Origin: Trichothermofontia sichuanensis B231
GTDB taxonomy: Bacteria; Cyanobacteriota; Cyanobacteriia; B231
Direction of reading: 5' to 3'
Assembly (NCBI RefSeq): GCF_026240635.1
Contig: NZ_CP110848.1
Coordinates: 4,359,741-4,423,740 of the forward strand
DNA: 64,000 nucleotides
Shown here: piece by piece, positions 45,292 to 50,972 of the stretch
Numbering within the stretch: position 1 is the first letter of the stretch
How the letters are laid out: each line of letters opens with the position of its first letter
Notes under the pieces: model-generated
Database searches by the model: none
What the model was told of the DNA's origin: nothing
Seen by the model: the letters and a program-made list of their open reading frames with translations, nothing else
Translations under genes and position numbers: made by a program

Positions 45292-45855
45292 GTGAGTAGA
45301 GTATTAAATAGAACTGTTCTGACAACAATGACCGCCTCTACCGCCGATTCTGAGTTTGCCCTCCCCTCCCCTGCCGAAGTCCTTTCTGGATTCGCTGTTT
45401 TGATAGTGGCCCCGGCCATAATTGCCTTTAATACTGCCGCTAAGGACCCGACGCTACGCAGTTGGTTGAAACAGGGGATGGCGTTGACTGAGCAGAGCCG
45501 TGAGGCGATTGCCGTTGCCCAGGAACATTGGGAAGACCTTACGGCTGAAGTCCAGGCTGAACTGATCAACGATCGGCAAATTGCAACACCCCCAACCGCT
45601 CGTCTCACCACTGAACTACAGACGATCGCCATCACCCTTGATGTCCAAACTCGTGCCTTGACCCGTGGCTGGGTAGACTTGAAAACGCTAGTTCCCCTGG
45701 GATTGGGCGCGATCGCCCTGCGGCAATTATTGACCAAAGGCTTACAATTAGACGCCATCCCCTGGTATGTCCTGCTTTGGTACGCCTTCGATAGTTTCGT
45801 GATCCTCAACCGAACCCCAGCAACCATAACCCGTGATGAACCCCCAGAGCGCTAA
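45292..45855 (+). CDS. DUF5132/HMA-associated membrane protein
   Basis: The 187-residue protein has one hydrophobic segment (VLSGFAVLIVAPAIIAFNTAA, about residues 29-49). An amphipathic region follows, with LTEQSREAIAVAQEHWEDLTAEVQAEL, the pattern I know from DUF5132 proteins. The C-terminal part has a second hydrophobic stretch, WVDLKTLVPLGLGAIALRQLL, and IPWYVLLWYAFDSFVILN, which resembles the tail of HMA-like domain proteins found beside P-type ATPases. Together with the ATPase gene 370 bp downstream it is likely a partner of that transporter. GTG 45292 has a modest ribosome-binding site; ATG 45328 is an alternative start. It is flanked by inverted MITE copies E and F. Confidence 0.7.
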   Translation: MSRVLNRTVLTTMTASTADSEFALPSPAEVLSGFAVLIVAPAIIAFNTAAKDPTLRSWLKQGMALTEQSREAIAVAQEHWEDLTAEVQAELINDRQIATPPTARLTTELQTIAITLDVQTRALTRGWVDLKTLVPLGLGAIALRQLLTKGLQLDAIPWYVLLWYAFDSFVILNRTPATITRDEPPER

Positions 45856-46224: not shown

Positions 46225-49200
46225 GTGATTCAGGCAATCCACACCAACGTTCCTGGTAGAGCCAGATACAAGGTAACGGCTTTGTATCGATCGCCAACCC
46301 TAAAACGCTATCTCGAAGATTATCTCAGCGCTGATCCAGATATTGTATCTGTAACAGCAAATCCGCTAACGGGGACGGTGCTGATTCGCTTCAAGCCGGA
46401 TTGTCCGGTCACAGAAATAGCAGCACGGTTGGGCGAGGCGATGCGGCTATGGGAACAGGGGGAACCGGAGAAACAAGAAGGGATGCGTGAGGAAAGCGGC
46501 CAGTGGCAGGCGGCGGGTACTGGTGAGGACACAGATGAGGGGACGGGCGGCATCGTCGGCGAGGAAGGGGTCAGTGGGCTGACTCCACCGGTCAAGGGGC
46601 TGTCCACTGCGATCGAGGGGGAGGATTGGTATCAATTGCCGCTGGCGGCGGTGCTGCAACGGTGGGGGACGGATGCTGAACGTGGTCTGTCTGTCACCAT
46701 GGCTGGTCAGCGGTTAGTTGAATATGGACCGAATCAACTGGAGACGGCAGCGGGACGATCGGACCTCAGTATGCTGCTGGAGCAGTTCACGACCTGGCCC
46801 GTAGCGTTGCTCGGTGGGGCAGCGCTCCTGTCGGGGCTGACGGGGGGCCTGGTGGATGCGATCGTGATTATGGGGGTGGTGGGGGTTAATGCGGTGATTG
46901 GCTATGTGACGGAAAGCCAATCAGAGAAAATTATTCGCTCCCTGCGGCAGGGCGATCGGCCTCTGGTCCAGGTGCGGCGCGATGGCGAGGTGTTGACCAT
47001 CCCGACGGAGGAAGTCGTGCCGGGGGATCTGCTGCTGCTGCGATCGGGCAATTATGTGGCAGCCGATGCGCGGTTGATCCAGGCGAACAACCTGAGTATT
47101 GATGAGTCGGCCTTGACGGGGGAAAGTATTGCCGTCAGTAAGCGGGTAGTGGACTTGGGAGCGGCCATAGTACCCCTAGCGGAACGGGTGAATATGGTGT
47201 TTAAGGGCACATTCATCGTTGGTGGCGAGGGGTTAGCGGTGGTCACGGCCACGGGGTTGGCGACGGAGATGGGCAAGATCCAAACCCTGGTCGGGGAAAC
47301 GGCAGTCATGGAGACACCGCTGCAACGCCAACTGGGGGAAGTCAGTCGACAATTGGTGTTGCTCTGTGGGGGCGTGTGTGGTGCGATTTTTGCGATGGGT
47401 CTGGCCCGGGGCTATGGGTTATTGGAGATTTTGAAAACCTCGATTTCGTTGGCCGTGGCTGCGGTGCCGGAAGGGTTACCCACGGTGGCGACGACGACGC
47501 TGGCCCTAGGGATTCAGAATATGCGCCAGCGCAACATTTTGATCCGGGGCCTGAATGCGGTGGAAACCCTGGGATCGGTACAGGTGGTGTGTCTGGATAA
47601 GACGGGAACCCTGACCCTGAACCAAATGGCGGTGGTAGCCATGCACTTGGCAACGGCAACCCTGGAATTCGCACCTACGGGGGAACAGGTTAGCGTTGAG
47701 TTTACGGGTGGCTCGGCGACGATCGATGCGATCGCCCGGCAACGGCTGCTGGCAATTGGGGTCCTGTGCAGTGAAAGTGAGATCCACCGGGCGGCGGACG
47801 GTACCTATACCGTCAAAGGGACGGCGACGGAAAACGCTCTGGTGAATCTGGCGATCGCCCAATCCGTTGATGTACTGGACCTACGCCAACGCTATCCTCG
47901 ACGGCAACTCAATCCCCGTACCGATAGCCGCAACCTCATGAGTACGATCCATGACACGCCCGATGGCAAACCGTGGGTTGCTGTCAAGGGCAGTCCGCCG
48001 GAGGTGTTGGAACGATGTCGGGCCTTTCTCGATCAAGGGGTGGTCAAACCGCTTACCCTCAAGGATCAGCAAGCATTGGAAATGGCCAATCAGGGCCTTG
48101 CCGATCGCGCCCTGCGGGTGCTGGCAATGGCCTATCGGGACTTAGATCCCGATCAACCCGACGGCGACCCAGAACAGGATCTGATCTGGGTAGGTTTGGT
48201 CGGACTGGCTGATCCCATCCGCGAGAGGGTGCCGACGCTGATTGAACAGTTCCACCAGGCCGGGATTGCGACGGTCATGGTGACGGGCGACCAGAGTCCG
48301 ACGGCCTACGCGATCGGACGGCAGTTGCATTTGAACCGGGATCGGCAACTGAAAATCCTCGATGCCTATGATCTGTCTACCCTGGAGCCAGAAGCCCTTA
48401 CGGCCCTGGCGGATAAGGTGGATATTTTCGCCCGCATTAGCCCAGCCGATAAGCTGCAAATCGTGCGGGCACTGCAATCGACCAACAAAATTGTGGCGAT
48501 GACCGGCGATGGCATTAACGATACCCCGGCCCTGAAGGCGGCCAATGTAGGGCTGGCGATGGGGTCGGGTCGGGCGGGGGTGGTGCATGAGGTAGCGGAT
48601 GTGGTGATCCAGGATGACAACCTGAGTACGATCATTGATGCCGTTAGCCAGGGCCGCACGATCTATAACAACATTCGCAAGTCGGTTCATTTCCTGTTGG
48701 CAACCAACCTGAGTGAAATTATTGTCATGGCGATCGCGACCCTCTTTGGCTGGGGCGAACCCTTGAATGCACTACAACTGCTCTGGCTAAACCTGGTTAC
48801 TGATGTTTTCCCCGGCCTGGGCTTGGCCCTGGAACCGCCGGAACCCGATATCCTGAACCAACCGCCCCGCGATCCGAATACACCAATTATTCGTAACCAA
48901 GATTTTCAACGGATCGGGCTTGAGGCAAGTGTCTTGTCCTTTTTTACCCTGGTAGCCTATGGCTATGCCCTGGGGAAATATGGCCTGGGTCCCAAGGCAA
49001 GTACAGTGGCCTTTATGAGTTTAACGATCGGGCAGGTGTTGCACACCTTTAGCTGCCGGTCCGAAACCCATCGCTGGTTCGATGCGGAAAAACTCCCCCC
49101 CAATCCCTACGTTGAGGCCGCGATCGTCGGTGCCCTCGTTTTGCAACTGTTGCCCCTGGTGGTACCGGGCCTGGGTAAGATCCTCAAGATCACGCCCCTG

Positions 49201-49293
49201 GACCCCTGGGACTATGGGGTGATTGCCAGTGCGGCCCTGTTGCCCTTGCTGATCAACGAAGCGACCAAAAGGAATCCATCGTTAAAAGCCTGA
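46225..49293 (+). CDS. P2-type cation-transporting ATPase with N-terminal HMA-like domain
   Basis: The 1022-residue protein begins (GTG 46225) with an HMA-like fold lacking the CxxC metal site: TNVPGRARYKVTALYRSPTL and IVSVTANPLTGTVLIRFKP. After a charged linker, the cation-ATPase N-domain (LQRWGTDAERGLSVTMAGQRLVEYGPNQL) leads to the membrane core. Helix 4 has VAAVPEGLP, the phosphorylation site is CLDKTGTLT with D458, the ATP site VKGSPPEVLERC, the hinge MTGDGINDTPALK, and helix 6 NLVTDVFPGLGLALEPP. The PEGLP and NLVTD motifs fit Ca2+/Mn2+-type P2 pumps, not the CPx metal pumps usually fused to HMA. The next gene starts 14 bp on. Confidence 0.88.
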   Translation: MIQAIHTNVPGRARYKVTALYRSPTLKRYLEDYLSADPDIVSVTANPLTGTVLIRFKPDCPVTEIAARLGEAMRLWEQGEPEKQEGMREESGQWQAAGTGEDTDEGTGGIVGEEGVSGLTPPVKGLSTAIEGEDWYQLPLAAVLQRWGTDAERGLSVTMAGQRLVEYGPNQLETAAGRSDLSMLLEQFTTWPVALLGGAALLSGLTGGLVDAIVIMGVVGVNAVIGYVTESQSEKIIRSLRQGDRPLVQVRRDGEVLTIPTEEVVPGDLLLLRSGNYVAADARLIQANNLSIDESALTGESIAVSKRVVDLGAAIVPLAERVNMVFKGTFIVGGEGLAVVTATGLATEMGKIQTLVGETAVMETPLQRQLGEVSRQLVLLCGGVCGAIFAMGLARGYGLLEILKTSISLAVAAVPEGLPTVATTTLALGIQNMRQRNILIRGLNAVETLGSVQVVCLDKTGTLTLNQMAVVAMHLATATLEFAPTGEQVSVEFTGGSATIDAIARQRLLAIGVLCSESEIHRAADGTYTVKGTATENALVNLAIAQSVDVLDLRQRYPRRQLNPRTDSRNLMSTIHDTPDGKPWVAVKGSPPEVLERCRAFLDQGVVKPLTLKDQQALEMANQGLADRALRVLAMAYRDLDPDQPDGDPEQDLIWVGLVGLADPIRERVPTLIEQFHQAGIATVMVTGDQSPTAYAIGRQLHLNRDRQLKILDAYDLSTLEPEALTALADKVDIFARISPADKLQIVRALQSTNKIVAMTGDGINDTPALKAANVGLAMGSGRAGVVHEVADVVIQDDNLSTIIDAVSQGRTIYNNIRKSVHFLLATNLSEIIVMAIATLFGWGEPLNALQLLWLNLVTDVFPGLGLALEPPEPDILNQPPRDPNTPIIRNQDFQRIGLEASVLSFFTLVAYGYALGKYGLGPKASTVAFMSLTIGQVLHTFSCRSETHRWFDAEKLPPNPYVEAAIVGALVLQLLPLVVPGLGKILKITPLDPWDYGVIASAALLPLLINEATKRNPSLKA

Positions 49294-49307
49294 AACGGAG
49301 GGAAGTC

Positions 49308-50495
49308 ATGCGACATAACTGTATGTTTACCTCGGAATCGGTAACCCCTGGCCACCCGGATAAATTATGCGATCAGATTAGTGATGCGATCGTCGATCGC
49401 CTCCTGCAACAGGATCGCCAAGCACGGGTTTTGACCGAGTGTGCCATTTCCAAAGCGATTGTGTTTCTGTCAGTCCAATTTGTAGCCAAGCGATCGGTCG
49501 ACTTTACCATCATTACCCGCCAAGTGATTGACCAGGTAGGCTATGACCATCCCCCCTTTCGCGGCCATAATTGCTCGATTTTATCCAGCATCGAAGAACA
49601 ATCCCCGGATCAGATCCAAAATTTTGATGAGCATCAGTTAGACGAACAGGCTATCGATCGTATCCCTGTGCGGAACCAGGCCAATCTGTTCGGCTTTGCC
49701 TGCAATCAAACTCCAATGCTCTTGCCGTTACCGATTTGGCTAGCCCATAAATTAGCCCAGTATCTTGATAAAGCCCGACGCCATCAACTGCCCTATCTGG
49801 CTCCTGATGGCAAAACCCAGGTCGGCGTGGAATATAACCATCACAAACCGCACCGTATCCATAGTGTGACACTCGAAGTCAGCCAAAATACCCCCGATCT
49901 GCCCAGCTTAAAACAACTGCAAGCCGATATCCACGAGGTTGTGATTAAACCCGCCTTTGCCGATGAACCCCTGCAACCCGACGCCCACACCCAGATTTTT
50001 ATTAACCCCAATGGTCCTGTCATTACCGGAGGCCCCTTGATTCATGCCGGATTAACCGGGCGCAAAAATGGCATTGATACCTATGGTGAGTATTCCAAAC
50101 ACAGTAGTGCTGCCCTGAGCGGTAAAGATCCCCTACGCATCGATCGCATTGGGGCCTATGCCGCCCGCTATGCGGCTAAAAATGTGGTTGCTGCCGGTCT
50201 TGCCGAAGAATGTGAAGTGCATTTGAGCTATTCGATCGGGCAGGCCGGCCCCGTCAGCATCGAAGTCGAAACCTTTGGTACGGGTAAGGTTCCGGAAGAA
50301 GAAATTATTCGCCGTCTGAGTCAGCATTTTGACTTCCGTCTAGCGGGCATCGTCCAGCAATTTGATCTGCGCGGCCTGCCGGCTCGGCATCCCGATGGCT
50401 TCTTCCGCAAGCTAGCCACCTTTGGCCATGTCGGACGCCCGGATTTAGATCTACCCTGGGAGAAAATCGATAAAATCAGCTATTTGATGGCATAA
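49308..50495 (+). CDS. Divergent S-adenosylmethionine synthetase-like protein
   Basis: The 395-residue protein aligns with MetK along its whole length. It keeps SESVTPGHPDKLCDQISDAI (H14, D16 and K17 of E. coli), E42 in LTEC, Q98 in EEQSPD, K165 in DGKTQV, R244-K245 in AGLTGRK, and K265, K269 and D271 in LSGKDPLRIDR. But E55 (GGEIT) is Gln in LSVQF, D118 of GAGDQG is Asn in VRNQA, and D238 of MGDCGLTGRK is His in IHAGLTGRK. These acids contact or surround methionine, so ATP may bind while the normal substrate does not. The active-site loop is also altered. ATG 49308 follows ACGGAGGGAAG. It lies between the ATPase and an RNase III-like gene, 14 and 3 bp apart. Confidence 0.8.
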   Translation: MRHNCMFTSESVTPGHPDKLCDQISDAIVDRLLQQDRQARVLTECAISKAIVFLSVQFVAKRSVDFTIITRQVIDQVGYDHPPFRGHNCSILSSIEEQSPDQIQNFDEHQLDEQAIDRIPVRNQANLFGFACNQTPMLLPLPIWLAHKLAQYLDKARRHQLPYLAPDGKTQVGVEYNHHKPHRIHSVTLEVSQNTPDLPSLKQLQADIHEVVIKPAFADEPLQPDAHTQIFINPNGPVITGGPLIHAGLTGRKNGIDTYGEYSKHSSAALSGKDPLRIDRIGAYAARYAAKNVVAAGLAEECEVHLSYSIGQAGPVSIEVETFGTGKVPEEEIIRRLSQHFDFRLAGIVQQFDLRGLPARHPDGFFRKLATFGHVGRPDLDLPWEKIDKISYLMA

Positions 50496-50498
50496 ACA

Positions 50499-50972
50499 TT
50501 GAGCAGCAAGAACCCAATGTTAATCGAACAGAAACTCAACTACTTTTTCTTTGACAAGGAAATCCTGAAACGCTCGCTAATTCGCCCTTCCTACGCGATC
50601 GCTCGCCAGGAAGCTGGGGAACCTTGCGAAGATCAAGTTGCCTATAGTGTAGTCGGTGATGCCATCCTGCGTATGGTGTTAACCGAATTCGCCCTGCGAT
50701 CGGCCTGTCAAACTGAAGCCGAAATCAGTGATTGGTTAGAGTTTCGCTTAACCGAATCCGCCCTAGTCAGTATTAGCGAAGCCTTAATGATCGGTCCGTT
50801 TATTAAACTTAGCGATGCCGAAAAAGCAGACCGAATTGATGAAACCCCTGAAGCCTTAGTCCAGACCTTCAAAGCAATCCTAGGTGCAGCCTATTTTGAT
50901 GGCGGCTTTCATACCGTGCGTAAAATCCTAAAAACCTTATTTCAGGAACACCTACCGCCGGATTTAAACTAG
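50499..50972 (+). CDS. RNase III-fold protein with degenerate catalytic residues
   Basis: The protein has 157 residues from TTG 50499 or 151 from ATG 50517. The RNase III helical domain is recognisable: KLNYFFFDKEILKRSLIRPSYA, EDQVAYSVVGDAILRMVLTEFAL, EISDWLEFRLTESALVSISEAL and EALVQTFKAILGAAYFDGG, then the last helix. Compared with E. coli RNase III (E38, E41, D45, D114, E117), only D45 is kept (D54 here); the others read as Val47, Ser50, Gln and Lys. No dsRNA-binding domain follows, as in Mini-III. Cleavage activity is unlikely; RNA or protein binding is possible. It overlaps nothing but starts 3 bp after the MetK-like stop, so the two are surely co-transcribed. Confidence 0.75.
   Translation: MSSKNPMLIEQKLNYFFFDKEILKRSLIRPSYAIARQEAGEPCEDQVAYSVVGDAILRMVLTEFALRSACQTEAEISDWLEFRLTESALVSISEALMIGPFIKLSDAEKADRIDETPEALVQTFKAILGAAYFDGGFHTVRKILKTLFQEHLPPDLN

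Follow-up and report, generated by a model that had tools for sequence, protein, structure and literature searches.

A divergent MetK paralogue encoded beside an HMA_2-bearing P2A-type cation ATPase in cyanobacteria

Genes at the locus

The window analysed here is a stretch of 64,000 nucleotides belonging to the complete 4.44-Mb genome of the cyanobacterium Trichothermofontia sichuanensis B231 (labelled G000). On its forward strand, positions 49308-50495 encode a protein of 395 amino acids, named MetK2 below, whose MetK fold was recognised from Pfam domains, an NCBIfam model, alignments and a structure model. The reading frame is intact and matches all three Pfam SAM-synthetase domains (E values from 3e-31 to 9e-51), in agreement with a preliminary description of this DNA that had proposed a full-length MetK-like protein. 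The same description expected the standard metK of the organism to lie elsewhere in the chromosome, and it was indeed found at C1:4082105-4083328, its product sharing 48% identity with MetK2. The gene in the window is a real gene and not a spare metK. With TIGR01034, the NCBI metK equivalog, MetK2 scores 366.8 for a cut-off of 309.4, so that an automatic pipeline would name its gene metK. The structure model (mean pLDDT of 85.4) superimposes on MAT crystal structures with TM scores between 0.83 and 0.88, and the predicted fold is the MAT fold. Its low-confidence stretch, residues 247-272, is expected to include loops of the dimer interface, which is missing from this monomer model.

Fourteen base pairs upstream of the MetK2 start, and on the same strand, ends the gene of a P-type ATPase (46225-49293), and a likely ribosome-binding site for MetK2, GGAGGG (49297-49302, forward strand), sits in the gap that follows the ATPase stop codon (49291-49293). 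The encoded protein, 1022 amino acids long, is a P2A-type cation ATPase with an N-terminal HMA_2 domain, as assigned with the Pfam families E1-E2_ATPase, Cation_ATPase_N, Cation_ATPase_C and HMA_2. Matches belonging to its subfamily score above 1100 bits and all others below 800. The motifs DKTGT, LTGES, PEGLP and TGDGIND are present, together with the N..E of M5 and the N..TD of M6, which are invariant in the motif columns of the alignment. The nearest PDB structures are those of two Ca2+ pumps, LMCA1 of Listeria and human SPCA1. Since the window ATPase scores below the cut-offs of the NCBIfam Ca-ATPase equivalogs (557.5 versus 798.3 for the PMR1 type, 511.3 versus 703.4 for the SERCA type and 395.5 versus 507.05 for the PMCA type), Ca2+ can only be named as its probable cargo.

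The HMA_2 domain, delimited by alignment, occupies residues 1-73 of the ATPase (46225-46443, forward strand) and was modelled with a mean pLDDT of 96.1. H6, G11, R12 and R14 are invariant along the alignment, in which no conserved cysteine is found. The model has a strand-strand-helix-strand-strand-helix topology, with an extra strand ahead of the usual first one, and resembles the HMA domains of CopZ-type metallochaperones (TM score of about 0.7), none of the Foldseek matches reaching E < 0.001. In the window ATPase, the only one scanned for it, PF19991 (HMA_2) scores 26.7 against a gathering cut-off of 30. A second, partial match to HMA_2 (PF19991, 25.4 bits, below the cut-off of 30) is carried upstream by a protein of 187 amino acids (45292-45855, forward strand) that also contains a DUF5132 domain (PF17195, 41.9 bits, cut-off 25). 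This small protein is encoded near 14 of 23 MetK2 loci and at none of 11 loci without MetK2, a fragment being found at a twelfth such locus, which is decaying (G162); it would be an optional third member of the module.

Downstream, an RNase III-like protein without a dsRNA-binding domain (PF14622, 45.8 bits) is encoded at 50499-50972 on the forward strand, with a start that more likely lies at ATG 50517. Scans of the window for promoters and terminators gave results at chance level.

The MetK2 family and its active site

A profile built from three divergent sequences was run on a class sample of 390 cyanobacterial genomes, 15 of which contain MetK2 matches of 659-825 bits, the next-best matches reaching at most 487 bits. 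With eight further genomes from a second sample of 386, the family totals 23 MetK2 genomes. Each of the 15 MetK2 genomes found in the class sample has at least one additional MetK match. In a tree of 73 proteins, the MetK2s form a single clade with 100/100 support and a stem of 1.93 substitutions per site, which falls outside the cyanobacterial MetKs and also outside the other bacterial MetKs sampled. Close MetK2 pairs display dN/dS values of 0.05-0.09, which indicates that these genes are under purifying selection. The window protein, whose branch is long (0.64), has a glutamine at the Arg55 position of the family and may therefore be atypical of it. A horizontal or plasmid origin was rejected, as a tblastn search of 72,556 plasmids with one MetK2 returned standard MetKs only, with at most 50% identity over length.

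The active sites of the 23 MetK2s were compared with those of 51 standard MetKs, using the numbering of E. coli MetK. In the E. coli enzyme, H14 acts as the acid in catalysis, and the ribose is bound by D163 and D238; together with E55, D238 also holds the amino group of methionine, the carboxylate of which is held by Q98 and K269 (PMC1282579, PMC3853416). Twenty-seven sites are fixed differently between the two sets. On the nucleotide side, H14, E42, D163, K165, R244, K245, K265 and D271 are kept in all 23 MetK2s, and D16 and K17 in every one except the copy of G494, which is truncated at its 5' end. In the window protein, these ten positions (H14, D16, K17, E42, D163, K165, R244, K245, K265 and D271) are occupied by H16, D18, K19, E44, D167, K169, R252, K253, K273 and D279, respectively. 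F230, involved in adenine stacking, is kept in 15 of the 23 and replaced by leucine or valine in the other eight. The methionine side is altered at the four positions E55, Q98, D238 and K269, all of them invariant in the 51 standard MetKs aligned: D238H and K269R occur in 23/23 MetK2s, E55 is an arginine in 22 and a glutamine in G000 only, and Q98 is replaced by leucine in 18. The substitutions G253E, G258S, F262L, Q188S and E129Q are each present in the whole family, while D118 is variable (N, D, E, T or S). The gating loop GAGDQG reads VRNQA in the window protein, and GAGDQG is found in none of the 15 MetK2s aligned over it.

Judging from these residues, the ATP, triphosphate and metal site of MetK2 is intact and its methionine site is rebuilt, and MetK2 probably no longer holds methionine. 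In human MAT, D238 corresponds to D258, and D258G, which lies in the SAM pocket, is a disease mutation (PMC3793261). As D238 also touches the ribose, D238H could weaken nucleotide binding as well. The preliminary description had read several of these changes correctly from the window protein alone, which has Q57, N123 and H246 at the positions of E55, D118 and D238 and lacks GAGDQG. On a family scale, the glutamine at E55 is nevertheless a peculiarity of G000, and D118 is not a fixed difference. The residues listed there as retained (H14, D16, K165, R244, K245, K265 and D271) are present, except that K269, also on that list, is an arginine (R277 in the window protein) here as in all members. 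Its broader proposal, that the protein is neofunctionalised and differs from the housekeeping MetK, is supported by the separate clade, the fixed differences, and the contrast between a preserved ATP half and an altered methionine half.

Linkage of MetK2 to the ATPase and joint loss with HMA_2

An HMA_2-bearing ATPase gene lies directly upstream of MetK2 on the same strand in 23/23 loci, which cover eight family codes of cyanobacteria. This conserved partner, only 14 bp away in the window, had been overlooked in the preliminary description. The two genes are separated by -4 to a few hundred bp, and by about 1.1 kb in G494. At this last locus (L157, 6506-8770), an opposite-strand ORF of 283 amino acids, possibly a mobile element, is found between the ATPase gene and metK2, and the 5' end of metK2 is missing. 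The pairwise distances among MetK2s and among their ATPases are correlated (r = 0.95, with none of 2000 permutations as high), as expected of a pair inherited together. These observations show that the linkage between the MetK2 and ATPase genes is obligate.

Twelve other genomes encode an ATPase of this subfamily but no intact MetK2. HMA_2 is absent or detached in all ten of these ATPases whose N-terminal status is readable, contig ends interrupting the other two (G242 and G342), and a remnant of the domain is detectable in G162 only. On a tree of the ATPase core, HMA_2 changes six times and MetK2 six times, and they do so together in 6/6 independent pairs (sign test, p = 0.031), six being the smallest number of pairs able to give p < 0.05. 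Since HMA_2 is encoded 5' and MetK2 3' of a pump core of 2.7 kb that is retained, one deletion cannot remove both. The module of G162 (L121, 1613-5252) is caught in decay: its metK2 remnant is interrupted by a stop and has lost a large internal part, and its HMA_2 is frameshifted off the pump. Among the six independent losses, those of G162 and G041 are at decaying loci where damage has reached the ATPase as well. No conserved replacement gene was seen at the loci without MetK2. The joint loss of MetK2 and the HMA_2 domain supports a functional link between the two.

The surroundings of the module vary between genomes. In many loci of family f32 (L079, L080, L082, L083, L157, L158, L159, L163 and L164), a pyridoxamine-5'-phosphate-oxidase-like gene lies near the module and faces away from it, and ribosome-hibernation-like and PLD-like genes come next in some loci of this family. 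In G134 (L084, 445-5766), several small ORFs sharing the string FPFNWFPQRV form an apparent repeat array downstream of the module. A riboswitch control of the MetK2 locus was rejected: a scan of nine loci with Rfam returned a single match, a cobalamin riboswitch (RF00174, 35.2 bits) at 15707-15940 of L080 (G096), more than 5 kb from the ATPase start and not linked to it.

Possible roles of MetK2 and relation to known systems

MetK2 is probably a new part of the control of the pump rather than a spare SAM synthetase. The mechanism that we tentatively favour, with a likelihood that we place a little short of even, is that a neofunctionalised MetK2 works with the HMA_2 domain of the upstream P2A-type cation (probably Ca2+) ATPase. 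As suggested by its conserved residues, MetK2 would still bind ATP and, like MetK, probably cleave it at either C5' or the triphosphate. It would take a ligand other than methionine and more acidic than the ammonium end of methionine, given that arginine at position 55 and histidine at position 238 replace a glutamate and an aspartate. The basic HMA_2 domain would then read the nucleotide-bound state or the product of MetK2 and turn the pump on or off depending on the state of the cell, the RNase III-like gene being a local neighbour outside this mechanism. Both the chemistry of MetK2 and its physical contact with HMA_2 are deduced here from sequence. In its furthest-reaching form, which we regard as possible though on the unlikely side, a MAT-fold enzyme adenosylates or otherwise activates a non-methionine substrate by means of ATP, and the basic HMA_2 domain senses the product or the nucleotide state and gates the cation pump.

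Alternatively, MetK2 could be a catalytically dead nucleotide sensor that binds ATP (or PPPi) without any transfer, docks on HMA_2 and gates the pump by energy state. The loss of the methionine pocket is compatible with this scheme, a pure regulator needs no second substrate, and the joint loss with HMA_2 fits a docking partner. However, the catalytic residues for ATP, PPPi and metal, including H14, are invariant beyond what mere binding needs, and the positions of the rebuilt pocket are fixed rather than drifting, so we hold a dead sensor to be rather unlikely. The basic triphosphate-contacting residues (K165, R244, K245 and K265), all kept, could also serve a tripolyphosphatase or another polyphosphate-handling enzyme that has lost the first half of the MetK reaction and retained the second, and a negatively charged ligand is favoured by both E55R and D238H. 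Yet the retention of the ribose-binding D163 in all members and of F230 in most of them points to continued binding of a nucleoside, and no polyphosphate gene was recognised beside the locus; we consider such an activity improbable.

An indirect link to the pump would result if MetK2 paired with the standard MetK in the manner of a prozyme, with heterodimers altering SAM synthesis. In our own numbering, R244 and E42 of E. coli MetK are taken to correspond to Arg264 and Glu57 of the human enzyme. In MAT dimers, the active sites lie at the interface and draw residues from each of the two subunits, and the inter-subunit salt bridge formed by human Arg264 and Glu57 (PMC3793261) is kept in 23/23 MetK2s. 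A precedent for this kind of partnership is the S-adenosylmethionine decarboxylase of trypanosomes (PMC6221367). Against it, the presence of MetK2 tracks the HMA_2 domain of the pump and nothing that was seen in SAM metabolism, and there is little chance that this is its role. It is more doubtful still that MetK2 is an additional SAM synthetase of the ordinary kind, either moonlighting or induced by stress, whose active-site changes are tolerated. Its score above the TIGR01034 cut-off and its intact fold would be in line with such an enzyme, but E55, D238 and Q98, invariant in the standard MetKs, are replaced in nearly all MetK2s, and the loss of D258 in human MAT causes disease, as mentioned above.

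Finally, the preliminary description had grouped MetK2 and the RNase III-like protein into one module. The two genes are adjacent on the same strand in G000, and the gap of 3 bp given there holds with a TTG start; since 10 of 11 homologues examined start at ATG 50517 or only a few residues away from it (MLIEQKL... versus MSLEQNL...), a gap of 21 bp is more likely. The protein does have Val, Ser, Gln and Lys at the positions of E38, E41, D114 and E117, as described; with Asp and Glu at D45 and E65, four of the six catalytic acids are replaced. Its relatives (30-51% identity) are found in 31 of the 390 cyanobacterial genomes, mostly without MetK2, and make up a family of proteins of about 150 amino acids lacking a dsRNA-binding domain, the window copy being one of its most degenerate members. 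E41 and E65 are missing in all 11 relatives aligned (L135-L145). Only four of the 31 genomes also have MetK2 or a remnant of it (G000, G038, G134 and G162), and in the last three the RNase III-like gene sits at an unrelated place. The preliminary description itself named restriction of the pair to this genome as evidence against a module, and the search of other genomes found just that. These proteins are a small degenerate family whose adjacency to MetK2 is a local arrangement; as the pair occurs at 1/23 MetK2 loci, the RNase III-like protein was rejected as a partner and a joint module is hardly credible.

To our knowledge, bacterial and eukaryotic SAM synthetases make up one structural family with one known reaction. 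A clade such as MetK2, under strong purifying selection, with its ATP half preserved, its methionine half exchanged and its inheritance tied to the regulatory-looking HMA_2 domain of a pump, would give the first indication that this family has taken on another function. The activation of a non-methionine substrate considered above would mean a new function for a fold so far associated with SAM synthesis alone, as well as a new mode of P-type ATPase control. Its link with the HMA_2-ATPase may also bear on Ca2+ or Mn2+ control in cyanobacteria. At a practical level, pipelines will label MetK2 genes as metK, and genome-scale models of cyanobacteria and metK copy counts may be wrong as a result.

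Compared with known systems, MetK2 shares with MetK (TIGR01034; PF00438-PF02772-PF02773) the three-domain fold, the catalytic histidine, the basic residues for ATP and PPPi, the metal-binding acids and the salt-bridge pair. It differs from MetK in all four methionine-holding side chains (E55R, D238H, K269R and mostly Q98L), in the loss of GAGDQG, in 27 fixed sites, in its separate clade and in its strict linkage to a cation pump. As a protein, MetK2 is a variant of the MAT family that fails the methionine-site features and passes the fold, ATP-site and automated-annotation tests. The window RNase III-like protein is akin to RNase III and Mini-III in its helical RNase III domain, and it differs from them in its replaced catalytic acids and in belonging to a separate cyanobacterial family that is unlinked to MetK2 elsewhere. 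The ATPase has the P2A catalytic motifs and the M5/M6 cation motifs of LMCA1, SPCA1/PMR1 and SERCA, from which it is set apart by its extra N-terminal HMA_2, its own subfamily, equivalog scores below the cut-offs and, relative to SERCA, a glutamine at the position that we read as Glu908. CoBaHMA domains have been described together with cyanobacterial calcyanin. As a tentative lead, the HMA_2 domain of the ATPase may belong near them, judging from its HMA-like fold with a strand before the usual first one, its invariant histidine and two arginines on the first strands, the absence of CxxC, and its fusion to a P-type ATPase. We know of no HMA_2 or CoBaHMA domain coupled to a MetK paralogue, and the open-access papers searched describe neither a link between a MAT-fold protein and an ion pump nor a MetK2-pump pair. 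Together, the pump and MetK2 may constitute a module of a new kind.
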